The notes below the pieces were generated by a model. That model had not been told where the DNA came from, did not search any database, and saw only the letters and a program-made list of their open reading frames with translations. Shown piece by piece: positions 1 through 12,263 of a stretch of 12,263 nucleotides of DNA. The stretch lies in the NCBI GenBank assembly GCA_040757115.1, contig JBFLYA010000119.1:1-12263 (forward strand), read 5' to 3'. This stretch comes from a bacterium (GTDB lineage: Bacteria; UBA9089; CG2-30-40-21; SBAY01). Each line of letters starts with the position of its first letter. Position 1 is the stretch's first letter. A program made the position numbers and the translations under genes.

Positions 1-122
1 TGTGGAAAACAACAAATTTCCATAAATTTCTATTAGTTTCTATTAATTTCAATTTTTTTAATAATATCTCCCTATCTCCTTAATCTCCACATCTCCTTTT
101 GTTACACCACCTGAACGCTTAC
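1..122 (-). repeat. Partial family-E palindromic repeat at the left window edge
   Basis: These 122 bases are, base for base, the reverse complement of 4771-4892, the first half of the complete internal E element. The segment ends with the terminal motif CCTGAACGCTTAC at 110-122. The window begins at the centre of the palindrome (TGTGGAAA), so the other half lies outside the window. It contains phased GAAAT-type and GGAGAT-type short motifs, read on the minus strand. No coding potential is apparent. Confidence 0.95.
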
Positions 123-130
123 AAATATTA

Positions 131-372
131 AAATGCAAAATGACATATCAAATATCATATCAAAAATCAAAGAGCAAATATCAAAATTAAGGAATTCTTT
201 TATTCTTATTTTTGATTTTTAATATTTGATTTTTTTTATTGCCTTACAAGTACTTTTGCATTTTACTTTGTCATTTTGCTTTTTACATTTTGATATTTGC
301 ATTAAACTCCTTGTGGAATATTTCGCACCGGTATCCTATTGTTTAACAAAGAGTTACTTCTCAAATCAACGC
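131..372 (+). repeat. Family-F repeat, copy 1 (inverted relative to copy 2)
   Basis: This stretch of about 242 bp is a near-identical reverse complement of 5922-6170, with a few substitutions and small indels. It is very AT-rich and built from short variants of TATCAAA, ATCAAA and TGCAAAA words, so each copy also has partial self-complementarity. It begins only 8 bp from the E repeat at 1-122. I see no ORF. The 80 bp that follow, up to the first gene, hold only a ribosome binding site and a weak palindrome. Confidence 0.9.
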
Positions 373-452
373 TCAATTCCTGAATCCTTGATTTAATCAG
401 GGACAGGAACAGGTTTTATCCGAGAGCATTCAAAATTAAGGAGGAGGTAAAA

Positions 453-638
453 ATGTCTATAGTAGAAGAAAAAAGAAAAGAGGAACCTATTTATGAACGA
501 TTAGGTCCAGATGAGTGTTTTATCCTGAATAAAAACGATGAAGGGATATTAGTAGTGTGTAATAAAGGTGGGAAACCTAAAATCCAACGTATCACTATTC
601 CCCCTAAAAGTGAAAGGAAAACAAAACCAAAGCAATGA
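453..638 (+). CDS. Small protein upstream of PIN toxin, putative antitoxin
   Basis: This encodes a 61-residue, highly charged protein with no family I recognise. The N-terminus is Lys/Glu-rich, the middle (about residues 20-50) could form short beta strands (CFILN, GILVVCN, IQRITI), and the C-terminal tail is basic and proline/lysine-rich. A very strong ribosome binding site, AAGGAGGAGG at 438-447, sits 5 bases before the ATG. The stop overlaps the start of the PIN gene by 4 bases (ATGA), which suggests translational coupling. Gene order, size and overlap fit an antitoxin for the downstream PIN protein, and the basic tail could contact nucleic acid or wrap the toxin. That role is inferred from context only: no ribbon-helix-helix, AbrB or Phd motif is visible. 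It could instead be an unrelated small protein. Confidence 0.6.
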   Translation: MSIVEEKRKEEPIYERLGPDECFILNKNDEGILVVCNKGGKPKIQRITIPPKSERKTKPKQ

Positions 639-1066
639 CAAATTATTTGTTTGACACAATGATATTAGTTGCGATTATATGCCAAAAGAAAGTGCCTGAA
701 AAGTGGTATTGTATATGGCAACAGATACAAGAAAAAACAAAAAAGTTATTATTGTTTGAACCACTGATAGCTGAGGTTTTTTATCAATTGATTAAAATAA
801 AACAAGAACACTTTGTTAAGCAAGATATTTTAAAGATAAAAGGACTCCCTTGTACTTCCATAATTAAATTAGACGATAATCTTTCTTTTAAGGCAGGCAA
901 AATTCATTACCAATCCCAAAATATTAGTTTGGTTGATGCTTTTTCACTCTGTATAGCAGAAAGATATAAAGCGATAATTTTTACAACAGATTATTCCTTA
1001 AAAAAATCTGCAGAGAAATTAAATATCAAAACAAGTTATTTACCTAAAGAAGAATTAGGTTACTAA
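635..1066 (+). CDS. PIN-domain protein, VapC-like putative toxin ribonuclease
   Basis: This 143-residue protein has the layout of a single PIN domain. The acidic residues expected to bind Mg2+ or Mn2+ are present: Asp7 in LFDTMIL at the end of strand 1, Glu47 in the PLIAEVF helix, Asp101 in the SLVDAFSLCIAE motif, and Asp119 in IIFTTDYSLKK. Length and motif spacing match VapC-type toxins, which cleave tRNA, rRNA or mRNA. It starts within the stop codon of the upstream small gene, as is usual for toxin-antitoxin pairs. The Asn/Asp-Thr segment after strand 1 reads DTMILV rather than the common DTNVLV. The family is clear from the motifs; the toxin role and the target RNA are inference. A solitary nuclease with a housekeeping function is the alternative. 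Confidence 0.82.
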   Translation: MTNYLFDTMILVAIICQKKVPEKWYCIWQQIQEKTKKLLLFEPLIAEVFYQLIKIKQEHFVKQDILKIKGLPCTSIIKLDDNLSFKAGKIHYQSQNISLVDAFSLCIAERYKAIIFTTDYSLKKSAEKLNIKTSYLPKEELGY

Positions 1067-1075
1067 GGAGGCTTT

Positions 1076-1088
1076 GGGGTCTGACCCC
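1076..1088 (+). repeat. Perfect 13-bp palindrome GGGGTCTGACCCC between SD and start codon
   Basis: The palindrome can form a 5-bp G/C-rich stem (GGGGT/ACCCC) with a CTG loop. It lies between a strong Shine-Dalgarno sequence, AAGGAGG at 1065-1071 (overlapping the PIN gene stop), and the ATG at 1100. In the cyclase reading frame there is a stop at 1082-1084 and no usable start between it and 1100. The hairpin therefore separates the best Shine-Dalgarno from the only plausible start by 28 bases. Confidence 0.8.
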
Positions 1089-1099
1089 ACCATCTTGCT

Positions 1100-4000
1100 A
1101 TGATAAAAAATGGTGAATTAAAAAAACTTTTTAATAAATTTGTGAAAAGCGAAGAATGGGAAAAAATTAAGAGTGTCATTCTGGACAAGATAGGCTCTAC
1201 CTCTTGCTGGCTAATTGACATAGAAGGTCATTACAACTTTAAAAAACAGGATGATAAGAATTTTTGCCAGATGATTAAATCCACTCCCGGCGGGGCAAAT
1301 AGATGTGAGAAGTCTTTCCTGTTCACCTTACAGCAGGCAAGACGGACTAAAATGCCTGTTTGTATTATGTGTGATGCGGGTCTATTAGGATTTGCCTGCC
1401 CAATATTAGTTGGGAAAGAAGTAGTTGGAACCATCGGCGGCTGTCAGATTGCTAACTCGGATGTGGGTTATTCAGCCTATCAAGAAATAGCCAGAAAGTT
1501 TAATCTCCCGGCAGATGATTTTATAACCATTCTTCAAAAAGAAGACCACCTTATCTCAATGGATGTCCTTGAAATAGAAGTAGAATTGATTACCTTGCTG
1601 GCACAATCAGCCATAGAATTGGTTTTTAAACGCGAGCAGTTACTCGAAAGAGAAGAAGAAATAAAAGGAATATCCGAATCTTACCAATTATTTGGTTCAA
1701 ATCGTGAATCTATCCTTAATCTCGGTAAGGAGAATATTTACTCTTTAATTGTTAATATGGTTGCCCGAGCTATGGGTGCGGAGATATGTTCATTAATGTT
1801 AGTGGATGAAGATACTAAAGAATTAATAATGAAAGCCGCAGTGGGATTGGAAATACCTATTGTTTCGAAGACTAAAGTGAAAGCTGGCGAAGGCGTAGTG
1901 GGATATGTCATCAATACAGGTAAATCTTTATTAGTTGAGGATATTGACAATGACCCGCGTTTTACCAGAACTTTTCACTCAAATAGATATTACACCAAAT
2001 CACTTCTTACCTGTCCTTTGCGTGTTAAAGATGAAGTCGTAGGCGTGATTAGTGTTAATAATAAATATACCCACGGACCTTTTAATCAAAAGGACTTAGA
2101 ACTATTGGAACAAATATCTCATCATATTAACCAGGCTTTGACGAACTTATCCCCATATCCTTCAGAAGAGGAAAAGATAAAAGAACTCAAAGCCGCCGAG
2201 GTCGCCCGATTACGCTCTGAGGCAGAACAATTAGAATTACTTTGTAATGTTAAACGAGAAGAGATAAAGGAACTTGAACGCCAGGCAGAGGAATCGGGCA
2301 AAGCCAGAGTTCAACCTCCAGAAGAATTACTCACACAGATTGAAGAACAAAAGACAGTGCTCGAGGAATTAAATAAAAAAATAGCGAGTTATGAGGAAGA
2401 ATTAACCAGAAGACCTAAACTTGAAGAAATGAATGAGATAAAGATTAAACTTGAGGCAGACGCATTAAAACTAAAAGATTATGAAACTGAGATAGGAAAA
2501 TTAAACGCAACCATTGCTGAAATAACCACAAGACCCCAAATAGAAGATATTGAGATGCTTCGAGCCCAGTCAATAATCGCCGAAGAGGCTAAATTAGCCA
2601 GCGAAGAATTGAAGGCTAAACTGGAAGAAGAATCTATGAAGTCCCAACTCCAGGTTGAAGAAATAGAGAGATTAAAAGCCGAACTTGAGTCGATGAAAGA
2701 ATCTGTCTCGAGAGCAGAAGAGTATAAAGTCAAGGCTGAGGCTGAAAATTTGAAGGTTTTAGCCCTGACAGAGCAAATTCAAGAATTTACAACTCAAGTT
2801 GGTGAGATGGAAATGCTTAAATCACAAGTAACGGAATTGAAGGAAAAGGTTAAGGTTGAATTGCCGGCTGGTGTTGAACCAAAAGACTTCGAAGCATATT
2901 CCAGGTCATTAAAAACTAAATTAGAGGCTGAAGAAACAAAGACAAAAACCTTGACTGCCCAGATAAATGAACTTAAGACACAAATCCAGGACCAACGACT
3001 AAAAAGACAGATAGAGGAATTAGAGAGGTTAAAAAAAGAACGTTCGACTTTAGAACAATTACGGGCTCAAACCGCTTTAATTACAGAGTTAAGGGTTGAG
3101 GCAGAAAAGGCAAAAGAAAAAACAAGAACGGAACATACGGAGTTAGAAGAGTTGAAGGCTCAGCAGGCAAAGTTAAACCTTTTGTATCAGGTTAAGCAAG
3201 AGATTAAAGAGACATTACGCCAGGAGGCAGAGGCAAAAAGAGCTGAGGATACCAAAGGACAAACTGAAGCACAAGAAAGATTAAAAGAATTACGCGCCCA
3301 GGCTGAAGAATTAGAAAAACTTCGCGCCCAAACACGAGAACTTAATTTCTTATTCCGTATGACTAAAGAATTATCTCAAATGATGGAAAAGGAAAAAATT
3401 CTTGAATTAATCCTCAATGAAACATATACATATCTTGATTATCATCTGGGCGCCTATCTGATTATAAAAGATGAAAAACTTCAGGGAATCCTGCGACGAA
3501 ATTGTCAGGTTAATGAAAAAATAATCGAAGATTTAAAGCAAAAGATGTTAAATCAATGGCTACAATGGAATCCACGACGCAAAAAGGATGCAAAAAGACT
3601 AATTTCTCTGGAGGTTATTGGTGAGGTAGTAAAATCTGTCTCTCAACAAGAGGACCGTCTCCCTGCCTTCATCAGTGCTCCGATTAAAGAAGGAAATAAA
3701 ATTATTGGCATCCTGAGTGTTTGTAGTTTTACTAAAGATGAGTTTTCTCCAATAGAAAAAAGACTCCTGACCATCATTGGCGACCAAATATCTGTTGCCT
3801 TAGAGCGGGGTAGATTATTTGGCGAAATGAAGGATTCTGCAGAACGGGATGAATTAACTAAAGTCTATAATTTTAGATATTTTGAGAAGTTTTTTGATAA
3901 AGAATATGAGTTAGCCCTGCGATATAATCAACCACTTTCTTTAATCGTCTTAGATTTTGACCATTTGAAATACTTTAATGATACTTATGGGCATCAGGCA

Positions 4001-4417
4001 GGAAATCGGTTGATAAAGATTATTGCTCAATTAATCCAGCGTAAAGTTCGCAAGACAGACTGGGTAACAAGATTTGGCGGTGATGAGTTCACCATTGTTT
4101 TGCCGCAAACAAGTCAATCTGCGGCAATGTTGGTCGCAGAAAAAATACGCAGTGAAATTGCCAAACACCAGATGGTATTTGAAGGTAAATCTTTCAATTT
4201 AACTGCCAGTCTGGGGGTATCGACCTGCTATAAAGAAGACGATAAGTCATTTAATGCCAAGATGTTAGTTTCAAGGGCAGACCAGGCACTTTATTGGGCA
4301 AAGGAAGCTGGTAGAAACCGCGTCTGCCTGTATCAAACCGGTATGGAACAAAAACCCATCAAACCCCACTATCAATGGAAAGATGTCATCCTCGCCCTGA
4401 TGAGACCTTTATCTTAA
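1100..4417 (+). CDS. PocR-GAF-coiled coil-GAF-GGDEF diguanylate cyclase
   Basis: This is a 1105-residue predicted soluble sensor enzyme that makes cyclic di-GMP from two GTP. Domains in order: a PocR-type ligand-binding domain at about 10-170, with Cys56, Cys69 and Cys91 in CDAGLLGFACPI followed by GTIGGCQ; a GAF domain at about 205-350; a Glu/Lys/Leu-rich coiled coil at about 355-745; a second GAF at about 750-910; and a GGDEF domain at about 915-1085. The active-site motif GGDEF is intact at 993-997. The inhibitory-site motif RxxD (RKTD, 984-987) sits five residues before it, so product feedback is expected. There are no membrane segments or signal peptide. The roughly 390-residue coiled coil is far longer than the usual linkers between sensor and cyclase. 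ATG 1100 keeps the whole PocR domain, but its ribosome binding site is distant (1065-1071). Ligand and target pathway cannot be read from the sequence. Confidence 0.93.
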   Translation: MIKNGELKKLFNKFVKSEEWEKIKSVILDKIGSTSCWLIDIEGHYNFKKQDDKNFCQMIKSTPGGANRCEKSFLFTLQQARRTKMPVCIMCDAGLLGFACPILVGKEVVGTIGGCQIANSDVGYSAYQEIARKFNLPADDFITILQKEDHLISMDVLEIEVELITLLAQSAIELVFKREQLLEREEEIKGISESYQLFGSNRESILNLGKENIYSLIVNMVARAMGAEICSLMLVDEDTKELIMKAAVGLEIPIVSKTKVKAGEGVVGYVINTGKSLLVEDIDNDPRFTRTFHSNRYYTKSLLTCPLRVKDEVVGVISVNNKYTHGPFNQKDLELLEQISHHINQALTNLSPYPSEEEKIKELKAAEVARLRSEAEQLELLCNVKREEIKELERQAEESGKARVQPPEELLTQIEEQKTVLEELNKKIASYEEELTRRPKLEEMNEIKIKLEADALKLKDYETEIGKLNATIAEITTRPQIEDIEMLRAQSIIAEEAKLASEELKAKLEEESMKSQLQVEEIERLKAELESMKESVSRAEEYKVKAEAENLKVLALTEQIQEFTTQVGEMEMLKSQVTELKEKVKVELPAGVEPKDFEAYSRSLKTKLEAEETKTKTLTAQINELKTQIQDQRLKRQIEELERLKKERSTLEQLRAQTALITELRVEAEKAKEKTRTEHTELEELKAQQAKLNLLYQVKQEIKETLRQEAEAKRAEDTKGQTEAQERLKELRAQAEELEKLRAQTRELNFLFRMTKELSQMMEKEKILELILNETYTYLDYHLGAYLIIKDEKLQGILRRNCQVNEKIIEDLKQKMLNQWLQWNPRRKKDAKRLISLEVIGEVVKSVSQQEDRLPAFISAPIKEGNKIIGILSVCSFTKDEFSPIEKRLLTIIGDQISVALERGRLFGEMKDSAERDELTKVYNFRYFEKFFDKEYELALRYNQPLSLIVLDFDHLKYFNDTYGHQAGNRLIKIIAQLIQRKVRKTDWVTRFGGDEFTIVLPQTSQSAAMLVAEKIRSEIAKHQMVFEGKSFNLTASLGVSTCYKEDDKSFNAKMLVSRADQALYWAKEAGRNRVCLYQTGMEQKPIKPHYQWKDVILALMRPLS

Positions 4418-4424
4418 TTTGTCC

Positions 4425-4463
4425 GTAACCGTTCAGGTAGTCCTTTACCGCAGAGACGCAGAG
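4425..4463 (+). repeat. Family-G repeat, copy 1 (GTAACCGTTCAGG plus GCAGAGACGCAGAG)
   Basis: This 39-bp sequence is identical to 10952-10990. It begins with the same 13-bp end motif, GTAACCGTTCAGG, that caps the E elements, then continues into an unrelated interior containing CCGCAGAGACGCAGAG. It starts 7 bases after the cyclase stop codon. With the inverted motif at 4995-5007 it could mark the outer ends of a 583-bp composite (4425-5007), but the region between them also contains a complete E element. Confidence 0.9.
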
Positions 4464-4563
4464 AAACCAGAGAGGAAAATATCTTTTTTTTCGCGTTTTT
4501 CGGTGTTTAAAGGTGGTGTCTGAAAATAACGCTAATAGTGAAATCTATGCAGATTTGGTGTCC

Positions 4564-4671
4564 AAAAGGGGATAAGGAGATAAAGGAAGATATGGAGATT
4601 ATTCATTGTCCTTTCCAAAATTTTAGAATGAATTTATCTCCTAATCTCCATAATCCCCATATCTCCTTTTC
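4564..4671. repeat. Diverged, shorter inverted repeat related to family E
   Basis: The left arm, AAAAGGGGATAAGGAGATAA and following, is approximately reverse-complementary to the right arm ending ATATCTCCTTTT. The two are separated by about 20 bp around 4605-4626, which gives an imperfect hairpin of roughly 45 bp per arm. The words GGGGATAAGGAGATA and ATATGGAGAT are shared with the right half of E (12177-12210). It lacks the 13-bp end motif at clear positions and looks like a decayed relative. Confidence 0.65.
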
Positions 4672-4740
4672 TTACACTATGTTAACCTTTATGCTAGTGC
4701 TCCGTCGCTGATAATTTGATAGATTGTTTTTCTACCTGTT

Positions 4741-4760
4741 ATTCCCGCACAAGCGGGAAT
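4741..4760. repeat. REP-like hairpin ATTCCCGC-ACAA-GCGGGAAT
   Basis: This is a perfect 8-bp stem with a 4-base loop, G/C-rich within AT-rich surroundings. The motif resembles the dispersed hairpins seen in intergenic DNA of many bacteria. It has no T-run immediately after it, so it is not a textbook terminator. It is nevertheless the strongest stem between the cyclase stop and the E element and could protect mRNA 3' ends. Confidence 0.7.
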
Positions 4761-4770
4761 CCAAATTTTA

Positions 4771-5007
4771 GTAAGCGTTCAGGTGGTGTAACAAAAGGAG
4801 ATGTGGAGATTAAGGAGATAGGGAGATATTATTAAAAAAATTGAAATTAATAGAAACTAATAGAAATTTATGGAAATTTGTTGTTTTCCACAATCAATTT
4901 CTACCTATTTCTATAAATTTCAATCTATTTCTATTATCTTATCTCCATATCACTCTTATCTCCTTATCCCCTTTCTTACACTTTTGATATATAGCCTGAA
5001 CGGTTAC
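4771..5007 (+). mobile_element. Complete 237-bp family-E palindromic element (MITE-like)
   Basis: It starts with GTAAGCGTTCAGG and ends with CCTGAACGGTTAC, 13-bp terminal inverted repeats with one mismatch. The whole element is an imperfect hairpin. GGAGAT-rich outer arms (spaced about 8-9 bp) pair with TATCTCC-rich arms, and inner arms of GAAAT words spaced 10 bp pair with ATTTC words around a centre near TTGTTTTCCACAA (4881-4893). No ORF is present, so any mobilisation would have to come from a transposase encoded elsewhere. The left half is repeated exactly at 1-122 and the right half at 12141-12263, both inverted. It directly abuts the broken end of the metal permease remnant. A non-autonomous transposable element is the likeliest identity. 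No target duplication consistent across copies is visible, so other origins stay open. Confidence 0.8.
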
Positions 5008-5025
5008 TAATTCTTGGTATAGTGA

Positions 5026-5283
5026 TTTTCAACCAGCATAAGGACATCTGGGATAATTTTAACCTTTGGTTATATGGTTATTCCTGCTCTAAGTGCTCTT
5101 ATAGCAGTGAGGAATCTCAAAAAGGCATTCTTAATCTCGGTAATCTTTGGGTTAATAGCGACCCTCTTGGGATTGCATCTCTCCTTCCTATTAGATTTAC
5201 CTTCAGGACCAACTATTGTAACTGTTTTATGTATCTTATTAGCGTTGAGTTGGTTAAGCAAGAAAGATTCGTTTTTTATATGA
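5026..5283 (+). pseudogene. 3' remnant of ABC-3 family metal permease (ZnuB/MntB-like)
   Basis: The open frame gives about 85 residues resembling the C-terminus of ABC-3 permeases, the membrane subunit of zinc/manganese/iron ABC importers. It shows TSGIILTFG, then MVIPALSALIAVRNLKK, a hydrophobic helix, LLGLHLSFLLDLPSG and PTIVTVLCILLAL. A complete family member is about 260-290 residues, so roughly the first two-thirds is missing. The same frame upstream contains TAG and TGA at 5020-5025 and then runs into the E element ending at 5007. No start codon with a ribosome binding site precedes it, and the first in-frame ATG (5074) lies inside the conserved helix. I infer that the gene was cut by rearrangement at the E element, or that an assembly join occurred there. 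Its position just upstream of a Fur-family gene fits a former metal-uptake operon. Confidence 0.75.
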
Positions 5284-5398
5284 GCATTACCACCACATCT
5301 GGTGTCCATAGCAGTTCGCCAACTGCTCAAAAAATGCTTAAGTCAGTGCCATTCGAACGCTCCCCTATTTATTACATGCACCCAAAATAAAAAAATAT

Positions 5399-5427
5399 TT
5401 GACAAAATGAATGCTTTCTGTTACAAT
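5399..5427 (+). promoter_or_regulatory. Sigma-70 promoter of the Fur-family gene
   Basis: TTGACA (5399-5404) and TACAAT (5422-5427) are separated by exactly 17 bp. This is the best promoter match in the window. Transcription would start near 5434, inside the palindromic operator, giving a leader of about 30 nt before the ATG at 5468. Confidence 0.85.
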
Positions 5428-5429
5428 TC

Positions 5430-5452
5430 TAATTGAGATTAAATCTTAATTA
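5430..5452. promoter_or_regulatory. Fur/Zur/PerR-type 7-1-7 operator palindrome
   Basis: The half-sites TAATTGAGATT and AATCTTAATTA flank a central A, forming an 11-1-11 inverted repeat with a single mismatch. Its core, TGAGATT-A-AATCTTA, has the 7-1-7 geometry typical of Fur-superfamily boxes. It overlaps the expected transcription start of the downstream regulator, a position suited to negative autoregulation. The half-site differs from the classical Fur (TGATAAT), PerR (TTATAAT) and Zur (TCGTAAT-like) half-sites, so it does not settle which metal is sensed. Confidence 0.75.
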
Positions 5453-5467
5453 CAATTGAGGATTAAA

Positions 5468-5893
5468 ATGAGCACCAAAGAAAAAGTTTTTAGGGATTAT
5501 TTAAAACAAAAGGGACTAAAATTTACCCCTGAGCGTCAATTAGTTCTAAAATATGCCTTTGAAATCCATAGTCATTTTGAGGCAGAAGACCTGTTTCTCA
5601 AGATAAGAAAAAGTGGCAATAGGGTTTCTAAAGGCACCATTTATAGAACCTTGCCTTTATTAATCGATTGTAACCTTATTAGAACCGTAGAATTTGTTGA
5701 GCAGCATTTACATTATGAACATGTCCTGGGACATAAACATCATGAGCATTTAGTCTGTTTGAAATGTGGTCAGGTTATTGAGTTTTACAATGGTATCATT
5801 GAAGATGAATTAGAAAGGATATGCAGTAAAAATAAATTTAGATTAAACGGTCACAAGATAGAAGCTACTGGCTATTGTGAAAAGTGCCAATAA
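5468..5893 (+). CDS. fur: Fur-family metal-responsive transcriptional repressor
   Basis: This 141-residue protein has the full Fur layout: an N-terminal winged helix (about 5-80) with recognition helix KGTIYRTL at 55-62, and a C-terminal dimerisation and metal domain. Likely ligands are visible: His34/His36 in HSHFEAEDL, the His-rich HKHHEHLVC (89-97), and two CxxC pairs, Cys97/Cys100 and Cys137/Cys140, that should hold the structural zinc. GAGG at 5458-5461 is 6 bases before ATG 5468, so I prefer this start to the in-frame TTG at 5456. It has its own promoter and an operator palindrome immediately upstream. The permease remnant before it suggests zinc or manganese (Zur/Mur-like); feoAB after it suggests iron. 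The sequence does not decide among Fur, Zur and PerR, so the symbol denotes the family only. Confidence 0.92.
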   Translation: MSTKEKVFRDYLKQKGLKFTPERQLVLKYAFEIHSHFEAEDLFLKIRKSGNRVSKGTIYRTLPLLIDCNLIRTVEFVEQHLHYEHVLGHKHHEHLVCLKCGQVIEFYNGIIEDELERICSKNKFRLNGHKIEATGYCEKCQ

Positions 5894-5895
5894 AG

Positions 5896-6259
5896 GGTAC
5901 GTGTTTAGCGTGTTCCAAATTGCGTTGATTTGAGAAGTAACTCTTTGTTAAACAATAGGATACCGGTGCGAAATATTCCACAAGGAGTTTAATGCAAATA
6001 TCAAAATGTAAAAATCAAAAGGACAAAGCAAAATGCAAAAATACTTGTAAGGCAATATAAAAAATCAAATATTAAATATTAAAAATCAAAAATAAGAATA
6101 AAAGAATTCCTTAATTTTGATATTTGCTCTTTGATTTTTGATATGATATTTGATATGTCATTTTGCATTTTTTGTATTACACAACTTGTTGTGTTTGAAG
6201 TGGTTTCGCACTAAGTCAGTACCATTCATTTGTGCTCTCTGAGCACGCTAAACAGGTAC
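5896..6259. mobile_element. Candidate 364-bp element with 19-bp imperfect terminal inverted repeats
   Basis: The ends GTACGTGTTTAGCGTGTTC (5896-5914) and GAGCACGCTAAACAGGTAC (6241-6259) are inverted repeats with two mismatches. Between them lie F copy 2 (5922-6170), a perfect palindrome ACACAAC-TT-GTTGTGT (6179-6194) and a hairpin GTGCTC-TCT-GAGCAC (6232-6246). There is no ORF. It fills the whole space between the fur stop and the feoA ribosome binding site. It could be a non-autonomous insertion, or F inserted into an older palindromic control region. I see no convincing promoter for feoA here; TTGATA/TATGAT at 6117-6147 has a 19-bp spacer and is weak. Confidence 0.55.
5922..6170 (-). repeat. 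Family-F repeat, copy 2
   Basis: Nearly identical to the reverse complement of 131-372. The homology starts at GCGTTGATTTGAG and ends at GTCATTTTGCATTT. Differences are a handful of substitutions plus a short ATTAAAT duplication near 6070-6080. It is AT-rich, built of ATCAAA/TATTTG words, and noncoding. It lies between fur and feoA, so it is probably co-transcribed with one of them. Confidence 0.9.
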
Positions 6260-6278
6260 AATATAAGGAGGGTATTTT

Positions 6279-6551
6279 ATGTGGAAAAGAATCTTTCTTG
6301 TTCAGATGGAGATAGGAGAAAGAGGAAGAATAATAGAGATTCAGGGCGGAGCAAGAATGAGTTTAAGATTAGAGAATTTGGGAATTAGAGTTGGTGAAGA
6401 GATAAAAAAGATAAGTCAACAAGCGATGCGTGGTCCAGCGGTAGTTGAGGCAGGAAAAAGCCAGGTAGCAATTGGATTTGGGATAGCATCAAGGATATTG
6501 GTAGAAGTAGAGGAGGGGAAAGAAATCAATGAAAATTCTTCTAATGGGTAA
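6279..6551 (+). CDS. feoA: FeoA, SH3-like accessory protein of ferrous iron uptake
   Basis: This 90-residue cytosolic protein has the FeoA SH3-like pattern: IGERGRIIEIQGG (about 12-24), then RLENLGIRVGEEIKKIS, then MRGPAVVEAGKSQVAIGFGIASRILVEVE. FeoA is thought to bind FeoB and modulate its GTPase or pore activity. The usual length is about 75 residues; the extra residues are a short N-terminal extension (MWKRIFLVQ) and a charged tail overlapping feoB. AAGGAGG, ending 7 bases before ATG 6279, supports this start, although Met10 would give the standard family start. It overlaps feoB by 23 bases, so translation is probably coupled. It follows fur in the same direction, and iron control by that repressor is plausible but no clear box is seen. 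Confidence 0.93.
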   Translation: MWKRIFLVQMEIGERGRIIEIQGGARMSLRLENLGIRVGEEIKKISQQAMRGPAVVEAGKSQVAIGFGIASRILVEVEEGKEINENSSNG

Positions 6552-8259
6552 TCCCAATGTAGGTAAAAGTGTAGTTTTTTCAAGACTTACCGGTGTTCAT
6601 GTCATTACCTCTAATTATCCTGGCACTACCGTAGAATTTACTAAAGGCGTTATGCATCTACCAGAGGAATTAGGGTTTAGTGGAGAGACGGCTGAGGTTA
6701 TCGATGTGCCGGGAGTGTATTCTTTAGAGCCTATCTCCAGAGCCGAAGAGGTTGCTATTGAGATGCTTAAGGAAGGGGATATGGTTATCAATGTGGTTAA
6801 CGCCACCAATCTTGAAAGGAGTTTGAATCTCACACTTCAATTGCTTAAAAAGAGAATTCCTATCATTGTTGCCCTCAACCTCTGGGATGAAGCCCAGCAT
6901 ACCGGGATAAAGATTAATGTGGAAAAACTCGAACAATCACTTGGAGTTCCTTGCATTCCTACCTGTGCCATAACTGGCGAGGGGTTTAAAGAATTGGTAT
7001 CCAAAATAAAAGAAGCAAAGATAGCAGAGTATGACTATGAGGAGGTAGAGAGATGGCATGAGGTTGGTAATATTACTGCCAGGGTAGAAGAAATAAGCCA
7101 TCGGCATCATATGTTTAGAGAAAGACTACAAGACGCCTCAATATCTTTCTGGACAGGCATCCCCATAGCATTAATAGTCCTCTTTGCCACATTCCAGATA
7201 ATTAGATTTATTGGTGAGGGATTGATAGGTTATGTATGTGAGCCATTTTTTGAGAATTTATGGGCGCCATTGATCTTAAAACTCTCAAATATTTTAGGTG
7301 GTGATAGATTCATTCACAACATATTGATTGGTAGATTGGCAGATGGGAAGGTAGATTTTGGCGAGTCATTTGGACTTCTTACCACCGGGCTTTATGTTGA
7401 GTTTGGGGCAGTGCTTCCCTATGTTTTTGCCTTCTATCTTATTCTCTCTTTCTTAGAGGATTCAGGTTATTTGCCCAGGTTAGCCGTGTTAGTTGATAAC
7501 ATTATGCACCGTTTAGGATTGCACGGCATGGCAATAATCCCAATGATGCTTGGCTTTGGGTGTAATGTGCCAGGTGTTTTAGCCACAAGAATTATGGAGA
7601 CAAAGCGAGAAAGGTTTATTGCCGCAACATTAATGGCTATTGCTATCCCTTGTATGGCAAAAACAGCAATGCTCATTGGACTGATAGGCAAATATGGAGC
7701 ATTGGGTTTAGGGATAGTATTTGGCACACTGTTTATTGTTTTAATTATTTCTGGAGTGTTCTTAAACAAAATTACAAAAGGTGAATCAATGGAGATATTT
7801 CTTGAAATACCTCCATATCGATTTCCATATTTTCGACTGTTGGTAAAAAAAATCTGGATGAGAATCTGGTGGTTTATTCGAGAAGCAACCCCCTGGTTAT
7901 TATTGGGCGTATTGATTGCCAATATATTGTATGCCTTTAGAATAATTGATGTTGTTGGAAATTTCACTGCCCCTCTAATTTCAGGAGTTTTTGGTTTGCC
8001 TGAGGAAGCGGTTGGTGCCCTTTTGCTTGGGTTTTTGCGAAAGGATGTCGCGGTAGGAATGCTTATTCCATTAAATCTTACATTTTCTCAAACGGTCGTT
8101 GCCGCTGTGGTCCTGGGTATGTATTTTCCCTGTGTGGCTACCTTTGCTATCATGGTAAAGGAACTTGGGGTAACAGGCATGCTCAGAGCTACAATATTCA
8201 TGATTATTTCTACCTTGCTGGTAGGTGGAATACTTAATTTGGTGATTGGTAAATGGTAA
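6529..8259 (+). CDS. feoB: FeoB, GTPase-coupled ferrous iron transporter
   Basis: This 576-residue inner-membrane Fe2+ importer has an N-terminal G domain: GNPNVGKS (7-14), NYPGTT (29-34, switch I), DVPG (59-62), NLWD (117-120) and CAITG (146-150). A helical linker follows to about 200, then about eight to nine hydrophobic membrane helices. Gate-type motifs GFGCNVPG (342-349) and FLRKDVAVG (502-510) are present, with Cys345, Cys375 (AIPCMAK) and Cys535 (FPCVAT) in or near helices. It is shorter than the E. coli protein (about 770 residues). The second segment after the first gate reads AIPCMAKTAM, where many FeoB proteins have a FMSCSARLP-like sequence. Start: GAGGAGGGG at 6510-6518 precedes ATG 6529. 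It is the last gene of the unit; no feoC follows. A hairpin spans its stop codon. Confidence 0.95.
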   Translation: MKILLMGNPNVGKSVVFSRLTGVHVITSNYPGTTVEFTKGVMHLPEELGFSGETAEVIDVPGVYSLEPISRAEEVAIEMLKEGDMVINVVNATNLERSLNLTLQLLKKRIPIIVALNLWDEAQHTGIKINVEKLEQSLGVPCIPTCAITGEGFKELVSKIKEAKIAEYDYEEVERWHEVGNITARVEEISHRHHMFRERLQDASISFWTGIPIALIVLFATFQIIRFIGEGLIGYVCEPFFENLWAPLILKLSNILGGDRFIHNILIGRLADGKVDFGESFGLLTTGLYVEFGAVLPYVFAFYLILSFLEDSGYLPRLAVLVDNIMHRLGLHGMAIIPMMLGFGCNVPGVLATRIMETKRERFIAATLMAIAIPCMAKTAMLIGLIGKYGALGLGIVFGTLFIVLIISGVFLNKITKGESMEIFLEIPPYRFPYFRLLVKKIWMRIWWFIREATPWLLLGVLIANILYAFRIIDVVGNFTAPLISGVFGLPEEAVGALLLGFLRKDVAVGMLIPLNLTFSQTVVAAVVLGMYFPCVATFAIMVKELGVTGMLRATIFMIISTLLVGGILNLVIGKW

Positions 8260-8267
8260 TCATTTAC
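8249..8267. terminator. Short hairpin over the feoB stop, possible weak 3' end signal
   Basis: GTAAATG-GTAAT-CATTTAC is a perfect 7-bp stem with a 5-base loop spanning the feoB stop codon, in the 24-bp space between two convergent genes. The stem is AT-rich. On the plus strand it is followed by A residues rather than T residues, so it does not meet the rules for an intrinsic terminator. It is listed as the only secondary structure visible at this convergent junction. Confidence 0.25.
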
Positions 8268-8283
8268 AAAAATGTGTGTCCTC

Positions 8284-9324
8284 TTATTCCCGAATCATGT
8301 TAGTCAAGTCAAATGTTGTCTTCAAGATTCTTTCGGTAATATCTTCAGATAAAGAACCCATTCCACAACTTGGTGTGATAAATAGATTTTTTAATAATAG
8401 GTCTTTTGGAATATCCTGACTGACTAACTTACTGGCTAAAAGCTCTATCCCTTCGTTGAATCTTCTAAATAAAGGATGAACATTCTCATTCAGAATTTCT
8501 TCAGAACTTGGAACAATTCCCCAGGCAAGCATTCCCCCTCTATTTAAAAATACGGTTAATTCTTCCGGGTATAAAGCAAGATTCAAAATGAACTCGTAGG
8601 CATCAAAATTAACAATATCTACGCTTGTTTCCATAAGCACTGACCAATCGGTATTACCACAGCAATGAATACCAACTAAGGCATTACTATTTTCTTTAAT
8701 AGTTTTAATTACTTCATTTAAAGAAGAAACTATTGTTTCCTTACTTAAACTAATATAGGCAGAACCAAAGGCAGATAAATATGGTTCATCAATGAAGATG
8801 ATTATTGGTAGATTCAGGTCTTTAAGTTTTGTGATTTGCCAGACTGATTTCATTGCCAATCCCTTAATTATCGTGTCAAATAATTGCTCATTATAGATAA
8901 TTGCCCTTTTTGTTTCATCAGGAACCGTCAAACCAAAACTAATAGGTCCGGTGATTTGTCCTTTGATAAATTTAATTCCGGCAGGCATCTGTTTTTTTAA
9001 ATACCCGAGCATAGCATAAAATCCCGCCGCATAATCCTCGCCTATTTTAAAATACTCTATTTCCTTATCAAGATAGTTTTGATAGAATTTTTCTAATTGG
9101 GATTCTACATCTTTAGTTGTATCGAAGAAAATCCTCTGGTTTTCTTCATCCCATATCAGACAGGGCAAATTCTCACTATATTGGAGATACATATTTTCTT
9201 TAAAAGACAACTGTGGTAATTGGGGCCAGATAGGCACATCTGGCAGGTTATCTAATATGAGCGTGATAGTTTTTTCAATATCTCTATGTGGCAGACTGCC
9301 AATAGCTGTGGCAAAACAATTCAT
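8284..9324 (-). CDS. MetE/UROD-like zinc-dependent methyltransferase family protein
   Basis: This 346-residue protein is of the cobalamin-independent methionine synthase C-terminal / uroporphyrinogen decarboxylase superfamily (TIM barrel). Visible features are the N-terminal ATAIGSLPH (5-13), KGQITGPISFG (121-131), FIDEPYLS (177-184), GIHCCGNTDW (218-227), DAYEF (241-245), AWGIVPSS (267-274) and ITPSCGMGSL (316-325). His220, Cys221 or Cys222, and Cys320 are the likely zinc ligands that activate a thiol acceptor in this family. It lacks the N-terminal half of full-length MetE (about 750 residues), so it is a single-barrel core type. Methyl transfer is likely; the methyl donor and acceptor are unknown. 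AAGGAGGG lies 6 bases before the ATG, and a TTGCAT/TATAAT promoter is upstream. It is convergent with feoB and divergent from purB; no partner corrinoid gene is nearby. Confidence 0.8.
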   Translation of the reverse strand: MNCFATAIGSLPHRDIEKTITLILDNLPDVPIWPQLPQLSFKENMYLQYSENLPCLIWDEENQRIFFDTTKDVESQLEKFYQNYLDKEIEYFKIGEDYAAGFYAMLGYLKKQMPAGIKFIKGQITGPISFGLTVPDETKRAIIYNEQLFDTIIKGLAMKSVWQITKLKDLNLPIIIFIDEPYLSAFGSAYISLSKETIVSSLNEVIKTIKENSNALVGIHCCGNTDWSVLMETSVDIVNFDAYEFILNLALYPEELTVFLNRGGMLAWGIVPSSEEILNENVHPLFRRFNEGIELLASKLVSQDIPKDLLLKNLFITPSCGMGSLSEDITERILKTTFDLTNMIRE

Positions 9325-9343
9325 TTTGCTTCCCTCCTTTTCA

Positions 9344-9373
9344 TTTGGTAATTGGTGAATGGTAATTAGTTAA
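9344..9373. repeat. Left arm of ATTACC-type inverted repeat pair
   Basis: TTTGGTAATTGGTGAATGG and the bases that follow are imperfectly reverse-complementary to 9612-9640. They are made of GGTAATT/GGTGAAT words. The arm lies in the 5' leader of the MetE-like gene. Immediately after it, 9375-9402 carries a GGTTTCGTCGTGAGCTCAGC stretch with CCGAATGG, related in part to TGGTTTCG at 6200-6207 and CCATTCG at 5349-5355. Confidence 0.65.
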
Positions 9374-9461
9374 ATGGTTTCGTCGTGAGCTCAGCCGAAT
9401 GGTATTTAATTACCAACAGTTACCAGAATCAAATTCCGCGTCTTATTTGTTCAACACTTTT

Positions 9462-9490
9462 ATTATACCAAAGTCTTCAATTAAATGCAA
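9462..9490 (-). promoter_or_regulatory. Sigma-70 promoter for the MetE-like gene
   Basis: On the minus strand, TTGCAT (9490 to 9485) and TATAAT (9467 to 9462) are separated by 17 bp. Transcription would start near 9455 and give a leader of about 130 nt containing the GGTAATT repeat arm and a palindrome-rich segment. Confidence 0.7.
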
Positions 9491-9539
9491 GAAAAAAAGT
9501 AAAATGGCTGGGTGTAATAATTTTTTTAACAAATTTCTC

Positions 9540-9568
9540 TTGAAAAATTATATCATAAATGTTATAAT
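9540..9568 (+). promoter_or_regulatory. Sigma-70 promoter for purB
   Basis: TTGAAA (9540-9545) and a perfect TATAAT (9563-9568) are separated by 17 bp. The start would be near 9575, giving a leader of about 85 nt that includes the second ATTACC repeat arm. No purine riboswitch or PurR-like box is evident. Confidence 0.75.
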
Positions 9569-9611
9569 AATAGGGCTTTACGAAATTAAAAGTAAGTAAT
9601 CGGTTAATTGG

Positions 9612-9640
9612 TAACTAATTACCAGTTACCATTTACCAAA
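9612..9640. repeat. Right arm of ATTACC-type inverted repeat pair
   Basis: TAACTAATTACC followed by AGTTACCATTTACCAAA is the imperfect inverted partner of 9344-9373. It sits directly before the purB ribosome binding site AAGGAG (9644-9649). The pair brackets both divergent promoters. Confidence 0.65.
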
Positions 9641-9659
9641 TATAAGGAGTTGTCCCAAA

Positions 9660-10955
9660 ATGATAGAACGATATACATTACCACAAATGGCAGGTATCTG
9701 GACATTGGAAAATAGATACCAAAAAATTCTTGATGTTGAGATTTGTGCCTGCGAGGCACAGGCAGAATTAGGATATATTCCAGAGGAAGCAGTTAGGGTC
9801 ATAAAAGAGAAGGCAAAATTTGATGTCAAACGAGTCCAGGAGATAGAAAAAACAACCCAGCATGATGTTATTGCTTTGTTAACCAATGTCGCTGAGTATG
9901 TTGGAGAAGAATCACGATTTATTCATTTTGGGCTTACTTCTTATGATGTGGTTGATACTGGATTATCTCTGATGATAATAGAGGCTCTTGGTATTATCGA
10001 AGATGACTTAATAAAATTAAGTGAAACATTATTCGCCGGGGCGATAAAATATAAAAAAACCATAATGATAGGTCGCACTCATGGAGCCCATGCGGAACCT
10101 ATTACCTTTGGTTTAAAATTAGCCTTATGGTATAAAGAGACTCAACGCAATCTACTCAGAATTAGAGAGGCAAAGGAATGTATCAGGGTGGGTAAACTAT
10201 CCGGTGCCGTGGGCACATACTCCCAGATTGACCCAAAGGTAGAAGAATATGTTTGTCATAAACTTGGATTAACACCAGCAGAAGTTTCAACTCAAGTTAT
10301 TCAACGAGACCGACATGCCCAGGTTTTGACGACATTAGCCATCATTGCCTCATCATTAGATAAATTTGCTACAGAGATTAGAAATCTGGCACGCACAGAT
10401 ATACGAGAGGTAGAGGAGGCTTTTGGAGAGGGACAAAAAGGTTCTTCCGCGATGCCGCATAAACGCAATCCCATTACTTGCGAGCGAATTTCTGGGTTAG
10501 CCCGAATTGTCCGAGCAAACGCCCTCGCCTCATTAGAAAATATCCCGCTGTGGCATGAACGCGATATCACTCATTCCTCAGTTGAACGAATAATCCTGCC
10601 TGATTCCTTTACCTTAGTCAACTATATGCTGGTTAAATTCAGGGATGTGGTTAAAAATTTAGTCATTTATCCTGAAAATATGCGGAAAAATATTGACAAA
10701 ACGCATGGCTTAATTCACTCTCAACGGGTTTTATTAGCATTGGCATACAAAGGACTCTCAAGAGAAAACGCATATAAATTAGTCCAGCGAAATGCGATGA
10801 AGTCTTTGGATGAAGGAATTGAATTTAAAGATTTGCTTAAAAAAGACCGCGAAATATTAAAGGTTTTGAAGGCTAAAGAAATAGAGGCTTGCTTTGATTT
10901 AGGCTATTTTATTCGACATATTGATTATATCTTTGAGAGATTAGAAATATCGTAA
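9660..10955 (+). CDS. purB: Adenylosuccinate lyase
   Basis: This 431-residue cytosolic enzyme of purine synthesis removes fumarate from SAICAR and from adenylosuccinate. Signature segments are all present: TTQHDV with His68, SRFIHFGLTSYDVVDT (85-100), GRTHGAHAEP with His141 (the general acid position), and the mobile catalytic loop GSSAMPHKRNP (261-271) with Ser262/Ser263. WHERDITHSSVER follows. The length matches typical bacterial PurB of the B. subtilis type. AAGGAG 10 bases before ATG 9660 and an upstream TTGAAA/TATAAT promoter support the start. The family repeat G begins one base before the stop codon, so the G of the last sense codon and the TAA come from the repeat. The natural C-terminus may therefore have been altered by a few residues. 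No other pur gene is adjacent. Confidence 0.97.
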   Translation: MIERYTLPQMAGIWTLENRYQKILDVEICACEAQAELGYIPEEAVRVIKEKAKFDVKRVQEIEKTTQHDVIALLTNVAEYVGEESRFIHFGLTSYDVVDTGLSLMIIEALGIIEDDLIKLSETLFAGAIKYKKTIMIGRTHGAHAEPITFGLKLALWYKETQRNLLRIREAKECIRVGKLSGAVGTYSQIDPKVEEYVCHKLGLTPAEVSTQVIQRDRHAQVLTTLAIIASSLDKFATEIRNLARTDIREVEEAFGEGQKGSSAMPHKRNPITCERISGLARIVRANALASLENIPLWHERDITHSSVERIILPDSFTLVNYMLVKFRDVVKNLVIYPENMRKNIDKTHGLIHSQRVLLALAYKGLSRENAYKLVQRNAMKSLDEGIEFKDLLKKDREILKVLKAKEIEACFDLGYFIRHIDYIFERLEIS

Positions 10956-10990
10956 CCGTTCAGGTAGTCCTTTACCGCAGAGACGCAGAG
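10952..10990 (+). repeat. Family-G repeat, copy 2, supplying the purB stop codon
   Basis: This 39-bp sequence is identical to 4425-4463 and begins with GTAACCGTTCAGG. The TAA inside the first four bases is the in-frame purB stop (10953-10955). After the repeat, a degenerate end-like motif GTAACTATTCAGCC occurs near 11015-11028, which could be the far boundary of a short, decayed element. Confidence 0.9.
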
Positions 10991-11034
10991 GAACAGAGAA
11001 GACATAGAAATAAAGTAACTATTCAGCCATTGAT

Positions 11035-11084
11035 TAACACGGATTAGCACGGATAAAAAAATAAAATCAGTATTTCATCTGTGT
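11035..11084. repeat. ACACGGAT tandem/inverted repeat
   Basis: TAACACGGAT and TAGCACGGAT are adjacent 10-bp imperfect direct repeats (11035-11054). ACACGGAT (11037-11044) is also nearly complementary to ATCTGTGT (11077-11084), which gives a possible hairpin with a long AT loop. It lies between purB and the convergent unknown gene and could act in RNA 3' end formation, but no T-run terminator is visible. Confidence 0.5.
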
Positions 11085-11092
11085 CCCTCTAA

Positions 11093-11959
11093 TTATTTAT
11101 TACTGTTTAATTCCAATCCACTTATGATTGTTTGAAGATTAAAGTTCTCTTTCAATTCATCTGCCTTACTGCCGGCAACCTTTTTATTCATGTAACGGCG
11201 ATAATAGCCCGCCTTGTTTGTCGAGTAATGATAGGGATTGATATTAAAGGGTATTTCCGAGACTTCTCCCTTAAAATATTTTTCCCAAAACCAGATTCCA
11301 ACACCATGCTCAAAATAGGGTTTTGCATCTATAACACGCTTTGTTGTATTCGGATGGTCTTCGATATGACGCCACCATCCACAGCCATTTTGAAACTGGC
11401 TGAGAGATGCCCCTTTGGTAGTGCATCCAATCATTTCAAACCAACGTTTGTAAAAAAGAGGGGTACCGTTGATTAATCTATTTATTCGTTGCATGAAGCC
11501 CACTTTGGCTCGAACTCCGATATATTGCCCTTCCCTGATTCTGGAAAATTCCATATCAATTTTCCTCATTAATGAGACGGGAATGAGAACATCCGAATGC
11601 CAAAAAGCGAGGATGTTAGAGAAGAGATGGGCAAACTCCAAAGGGAAATGCATCCACATGAGCGGTAACTTCAGCCTATTGTTGAAGTCAATAAATATTG
11701 AGCGGGAAGTAAGTCTTGGGGTTGGATATCTGCCGTCTGTTCCGACAACAGGCGTCCATCCGATAGCATTGACAAGTTGTTGTTGAACAAAGCACCATTC
11801 CTCATCCAAACACCAGCATAGCCAAGGTTTGGAAACGCCCTGAAGTTGTTTTTTCCAATCATCTGCTGAAAGAAAAACTAATTCCAAATACTCTTTCGGA
11901 AAGAACTTCCAATTTCCGGTACCGATAATTCCCTCATTCCTTGAAAGAATCCAATCCAT
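11093..11959 (-). CDS. Unrecognised tryptophan-rich soluble protein
   Basis: I do not recognise this family. From the preferred ATG the protein has 288 residues. A TTG at 11971 would add four residues, but GGAG 6 bases before the ATG at 11959 fits the shorter form, and this Shine-Dalgarno overlaps the TTG start. It has no signal peptide or long membrane helix. It has 14 tryptophans, many in aromatic clusters: PWLCWCLDEEW, MWMHFP, GCGWWRH and GIWFWEKYF. His and Cys are frequent (IGCTTKGA, GCGWWRHIEDHP). The C-terminal third (VIDAKPYFEHGVGIWFWEKY, then NINPYHYS) looks well ordered and conserved-like. A carbohydrate-related or nucleotide-sugar function would suit the aromatic content, but nothing proves it. 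It stands alone, convergent with purB, with repeats on both sides, and could be an acquired gene. Confidence 0.75.
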   Translation of the reverse strand: MDWILSRNEGIIGTGNWKFFPKEYLELVFLSADDWKKQLQGVSKPWLCWCLDEEWCFVQQQLVNAIGWTPVVGTDGRYPTPRLTSRSIFIDFNNRLKLPLMWMHFPLEFAHLFSNILAFWHSDVLIPVSLMRKIDMEFSRIREGQYIGVRAKVGFMQRINRLINGTPLFYKRWFEMIGCTTKGASLSQFQNGCGWWRHIEDHPNTTKRVIDAKPYFEHGVGIWFWEKYFKGEVSEIPFNINPYHYSTNKAGYYRRYMNKKVAGSKADELKENFNLQTIISGLELNSNK

Positions 11960-12044
11960 TTCACTCTCCAATTAATTTATCTATTTGTCAGTCAGGTGCT
12001 ATAGCAGTTATTAGTCAAAATTTTACTCACAGTGGATAAGTAAA

Positions 12045-12090
12045 AAATCCCAAATCCCAAGCACCAAATCTCAAATAAACACCAAATTCC
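12045..12090. repeat. Imperfect CCAAAT short-word repeat
   Basis: Variants of CCAAAT, CCCAAAT and ACCAAAT recur (AATCCCAAATCCCAAGCACC, then CAAATCTCAAAT, then ACACCAAATTCC). It is noncoding and lies upstream of the unknown minus-strand gene. I found no promoter for that gene in 11972-12140 that I would defend. Confidence 0.5.
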
Positions 12091-12104
12091 ACATACCAAA
12101 AAGC

Positions 12105-12134
12105 GAATTAGAGATTAGTGAATTAGAGATTAGA
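12105..12134. repeat. 15-bp tandem repeat, two units (GAATTAGAGATTAG)
   Basis: GAATTAGAGATTAGT (12105-12119) is followed directly by GAATTAGAGATTAGA (12120-12134). It lies 6 bp before the E repeat at the right edge of the window. Confidence 0.85.
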
Positions 12135-12140
12135 TCTTAT

Positions 12141-12263
12141 GTAACCGTTCAGGCTATATATCAAAAGTGTAAGAAAGGGGATAAGGAGATAAGAGTGATA
12201 TGGAGATAAGATAATAGAAATAGATTGAAATTTATAGAAATAGGTAGAAATTGATTGTGGAAA
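12141..12263 (+). repeat. Partial family-E palindromic repeat at the right window edge
   Basis: These 123 bases are an exact reverse complement of 4885-5007, the second half of the internal E element. They begin with GTAACCGTTCAGG and end in TGTGGAAA, the same 8 bases that open the window. GAAAT words occur every 10 bp between 12217 and 12253. Confidence 0.95.

Follow-up and report, generated by a model that had tools for sequence, protein, structure and literature searches.

The 12,263 bp window (the whole stretch of DNA analysed here) carries, at both ends and in its centre, copies of a 237 bp element which is very probably a young, high-copy, non-autonomous MITE with IS66-type ends, and whose arrangement in the window also reflects an effect of assembly. 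The window is the complete contig C119 of a parent assembly of 462 contigs and 4.32 Mb. A repeat finder and direct comparison showed that positions 1–122 are the reverse complement of 4771–4892, the match stopping after 122 bases, and that 12141–12263 are the exact reverse complement of 4885–5007. The two ends of the window have 8 bases in common (122+123−237=8). The original prediction, made from the letters of the window, had described the ends as reverse complements of parts of an internal 237 bp element, and both identities are exact. Chance can be firmly discounted as a cause of the match, because the parent genome contains some 130 occurrences of this 237 bp sequence and, of the copies scored, 29 are 100 % identical to it over the full length.

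Copy number and structure of the element

Pattern searches of the parent genome, in which the halves at contig ends were counted, located 135 left and 133 right element ends; the count of copies that had been proposed as a check on the window thus gave approximately 130. The genome search yielded 40 near-full copies, and identity over all 237 positions was found for 29 of the 39 full copies that were extracted. By arithmetic from ~130 copies, the element totals ~32 kb and makes up ~0.7 % of the genome. The 13-base end GTAACCGTTCAGG occurs 360 times in the genome, compared with a single occurrence of the reversed control, because several other subfamilies carry the same end.

The element is 29.5 % GC and has no gene-sized reading frame. 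The predicted fold spans nearly the whole element, forming a hairpin of −45.1 kcal/mol (z=−7.96). The terminal repeats are 13 bp in length, with the form GTAA(C/G)CGTTCAGG, and the two ends GTAAGCGTTCAGG and GTAACCGTTCAGG agree at 12 of 13 positions.

Identical 8-mers flank 23 of the 50 copies that are traversed by contigs (14 of 38 in the first set), and the other 27 internal copies, including that of the window, lack a target duplication. Amongst the unpaired ends, matches between left and right 8-mers numbered 29 at the exact junction, versus 0–4 at shifted positions. A small number of same-end pairs (left–left or right–right) was also observed; being few and AT-rich, these were treated as chance and not as true partners. 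The target sites are AT-rich and symmetric, with a consensus near AAAWWTTT. When the copy in contig C145 is removed together with one TAATTTTG, the remaining 112 bp align gap-free to window positions 6060–6171 with 99.1 % identity and, at the level of sequence, the pair is a natural empty site.

Copies in a sister species and in more distant relatives

G001, another species of the genus, has copies that are 100 % identical to the element of the window, and 11 of the 15 copies examined there have an 8 bp duplication. The copies of G001 are mostly at other sites, with one complete site in common with the parent-genome list, and the element has therefore remained mobile after the divergence of the two species. 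More distant relatives, 70–90 % similar over the whole element or parts of it, were found at the levels of family, order and phylum, and among 146 genomes strong enrichment of the 13-base end was seen only within the phylum.

In contig C232 of G001 (locus L095), at approximately 1669–2300, an element copy encloses a second element that has the same type of ends. Separately, the feoA–feoB stretch of the window (6285–8260) is 81 % identical to its G001 counterpart (L098, contig C265), compared with 97–99 % for the other window genes, a difference that suggests, from these alignments, that the stretch was replaced or is of different ancestry.

Contig ends follow the k-mer length of the assembler

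Dozens of contigs in the parent genome stop 118–126 bp inside an element copy. A de Bruijn contig that enters a repeat halts about k bases past the last unique point. Because ~130 copies exist, several flanking bases are needed before a flank is unique, and the number of element bases kept should be k+1 minus the shortest unique flank. We examined the 46 contig ends that keep 115–130 element bases, and computed the shortest unique flank of each against the flanks of all listed copies. Element bases and shortest unique flank summed to 128 in 34 of the 46 contig ends, both window ends included, whereas shuffling of the flank lengths (10,000 trials) gave this sum for 7.9 ends on average and for 17 at most. 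The number of element bases kept was negatively correlated with the length of the unique flank (r=−0.82). The sum of 128 therefore indicates k=127, a common largest k in short-read assemblers. Contigs break within the copies because these exceed the 127-base word in length and differ little from one another.

It is a coincidence that the break point fixed by k lies close to half of 237. The original prediction had presented the window ends as exact halves of the element; the identities are real, but the halving is not special, as the stop positions follow from k=127. The recent spread and the assembly effect that it had put forward are both supported. The k of an assembler and a young high-copy repeat can together generate a layout of contig ends that looks perfect, and the relation between element bases, unique flank and k+1 offers a quantitative test for such layouts.

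The features of the window are listed in Table 1. Full copies related to the GTAACCGTTCAGGTAGTCCTTTACCGCAGAGACGC subfamily are found at other loci, are 235–294 bp in length and have 8 bp duplications. A second AT-rich repeat was observed at 123–372 and, inverted, at 5922–6171 (95–98 % identical), with more copies elsewhere in the genome.

Table 1. Repeat features of the window and the sequences that flank them
Feature	Position	Strand	Details
Full 237 bp MITE copy	4771..5007	+	Ends GTAAGCGTTCAGG (left) and CCTGAACGGTTAC (right); 29.5 % GC; imperfect full-length palindrome
Flanks of the central copy	4771..5007		AAATTTTA / TAATTCTT; mismatch, target duplication absent
Left-end part of second copy, truncated by contig start	1..122	−	Flank TAATATTT; 122+6=128=k+1
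Right-end part of third copy, truncated by contig end	12141..12263	−	Flank GATCTTAT; 123+5=128=k+1
End of another subfamily with GTAACCGTTCAGG terminal repeat	4425..4470	+	Sequence GTAACCGTTCAGGTAGTCCTTTACCGCAGAGACGC
Second end, subfamily of 4425..4470 (GTAACCGTTCAGGTAGTCCTTTACCGCAGAGACGC)	10952..10994	+	
Left half of unrelated repeat (TAGTGCTCCGTCGCTG...)	4693..4770	+	Lies before the element, both in the window and in three contigs of G001
Uninterrupted copy of another AT-rich repeat	6060..6171	+	Empty site for the C145 insertion; 112 bp, 99.1 %, gap-free

Protein searches identified a PIN-domain protein, Fur, FeoA, FeoB and adenylosuccinate lyase (purB) amongst the window genes, and a large protein was recognized, by reading the sequence alone, as having stretches that resemble GAF and GGDEF domains. 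The gene content of the window is that of an ordinary chromosome.

Alternative explanations for the element and the window

The strong hairpin, and the presence of identical copies in two species, might also be expected of a fixed functional repeat that does not move, for instance a regulatory hairpin or a terminator whose copies are homogenized by gene conversion. We consider this very improbable, given that the target duplications, the empty site and the differing sites in the two species show insertion. It is even harder to credit that the window is a 12.1 kb circular molecule (a plasmid or an excised circle) with two inverted element copies, although its ends overlap by 8 bp and would together complete one element. 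The assembly of a closed circle would be expected to leave an overlap of ~k bases, not 8, and both ends obey the k+1=128 rule in the same way as other broken contigs. The left end has the 8 bp flank TAATATTT, whose counterpart is at the end of contig C5 and not at the window's own right end; this pairing is suggestive only, because TAATATTT is AT-rich. In addition, the window encodes chromosomal housekeeping genes (purB, feoAB and fur), and the same genes are spread over four contigs of G001. We rejected the circle, as the 8 bp overlap is explained by k, the long terminal overlap of a circle is absent and the window proteins searched include no replication gene. The original prediction had left two options, that the contig stops inside further conserved copies or that it is a circle; the former agrees with the ~130 copies and the dozens of contigs that end likewise, and the latter is unsupported. 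On this basis the window is a linear chromosomal fragment, delimited by two element copies and carrying a third in its middle.

The original prediction was justified in its suspicion of the central join, in which the left segment (A) is connected to the right segment (B) through the central copy (E). This copy has no target duplication, and the A–E–B join is consequently either recombined or misassembled. There is about an even chance that it is a misassembly through the repeat: 27 of the 50 traversed copies lack a duplication though most copies are identical, the 8 bp partners of some unduplicated flanks lie at other contig ends, and the element is longer than k. However, 23 traversed copies have perfect duplications, from which it follows that the assembler often resolved the repeat correctly, and 11 of the 15 G001 copies are duplicated. 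A genuine join, produced by homologous recombination between copies (inversion, translocation or deletion) with each flank keeping half of its duplication, is a serious candidate but falls somewhat short of an even chance. Such an event would be consistent with the missing duplication of the window copy and with the flanks of duplication-lacking copies in general, which bear on both sides the same target signature as duplicated copies, so that either side resembles the edge of a true insertion, with the partner edge exchanged. It is also consistent with the orthologous left flank in G001, where AAATTTTA is perfectly duplicated around the element and the right flank is a different one, CGAATATGAATGG, and with the absence of this G001-type junction from the window's own genome. 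Against recombination, a short-read assembler using paired reads can make such joins falsely. In a synteny test of the A–B join, the contigs of G001 were found to break at repeats as well. Contig C333, which shares AAATTTTA, was considered as the true partner of the central left flank, but the pairing is possibly due to chance, because G001 shows another original right flank. We speculate, with some doubt, that element copies are frequent sites of homologous recombination that reshuffle the chromosome, approximately half of them having lost matching duplications despite being near-identical, and that the window join is one product of this process.

A putative link to IS66-family insertion sequences

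Ends that begin with GTAA and 8 bp repeats are features of the IS66 family, and the element has both GTAA-starting ends and an 8 bp duplication. Contig C277 of the parent genome contains a gene with a match to the IS66 transposase (PF03050, E=1.9e-39) that is interrupted by two stop codons. The ends of this relic are identical to those of the element: one, GTAACCGTTCAGG, lies at 3061, and the other, CCTGAACGGTTAC, runs up to 4623. The gene is the sole long IS66 gene in the genome, where the remaining IS66 matches are fragments, and the element that contains it lacks a target duplication. No intact autonomous partner with 13/13 matching ends was found in the parent genome, a fragmented assembly from which repeated IS copies may be missing. 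In the same order, intact single-gene IS66 genes are bounded by ends (GTAACTACTCAGG and GTAACCGTTCA) that resemble those of the element.

As a relic with the same 13 bp ends is co-resident, the mechanism best inferred from these sequences is mobilization by an IS66 transposase acting in trans, and such a transposase is presumably active now or was so recently. The putative terminal-repeat link between the element and IS66 consists of 13 bp only. In the model that we propose, the element would carry terminal repeats of the kind found in single-gene, ISBst12-like insertion sequences of the IS66 family, a transposase of which would mobilize it in trans, and each insertion would duplicate 8 bp of AT-rich target. 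Recent spread would then have produced ~130 near-identical copies, inside which contigs break at the point set by k.

Comparison with known elements

The Correia and ERIC elements belong to other lineages and have different ends from the element described here. Compared by description, they resemble it as small high-copy bacterial elements, with >120 and 30–711 copies, respectively (PMC10969869). The Chunjie MITE of Geobacter uraniireducens is also similar by description, being 235 bp in length, mostly intergenic and present in dozens of copies with terminal inverted and direct repeats, but its 38 copies (178–235 bp) and 57 partial copies contrast with the ~130 mostly identical copies found here (PMC10969869). 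A Cardinium MITE derived from an IS982-family element shows a comparable lineage-specific recent spread and was probably moved by its parent insertion sequence; unlike the present case, the parent is of another family and intact parents are reported, whereas only a relic was found here (PMC9769881).

Within IS66, the element is most readily compared with the ISBst12 group, which includes ISDge4, and with which it shares ends like GTAAC.G.TCAG and the 8 bp target duplication, in addition to the co-resident relic with the element's 13 bp ends; it differs in being 237 bp in length, without a transposase gene and palindromic throughout. ISDge4 has GTAACTGCTCAGCA as an end, with an 8 bp repeat (PMC12898284), and two IS66 members in Paracoccus yield 8 bp repeats (PMC3281130). 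A 2024 review of prokaryotic MITEs makes no mention of IS66 (PMC10969869). Our analysis describes a MITE family with IS66-type ends that is both large and young and that resides in an uncultured lineage. Elements of this kind break up assemblies, and they may also rearrange the order of genes. As a minor observation, a carbon monoxide dehydrogenase-like gene (PF03063, E=1.6e-168) lies near that end of contig C5 (locus L055) which pairs with the left end of the window.
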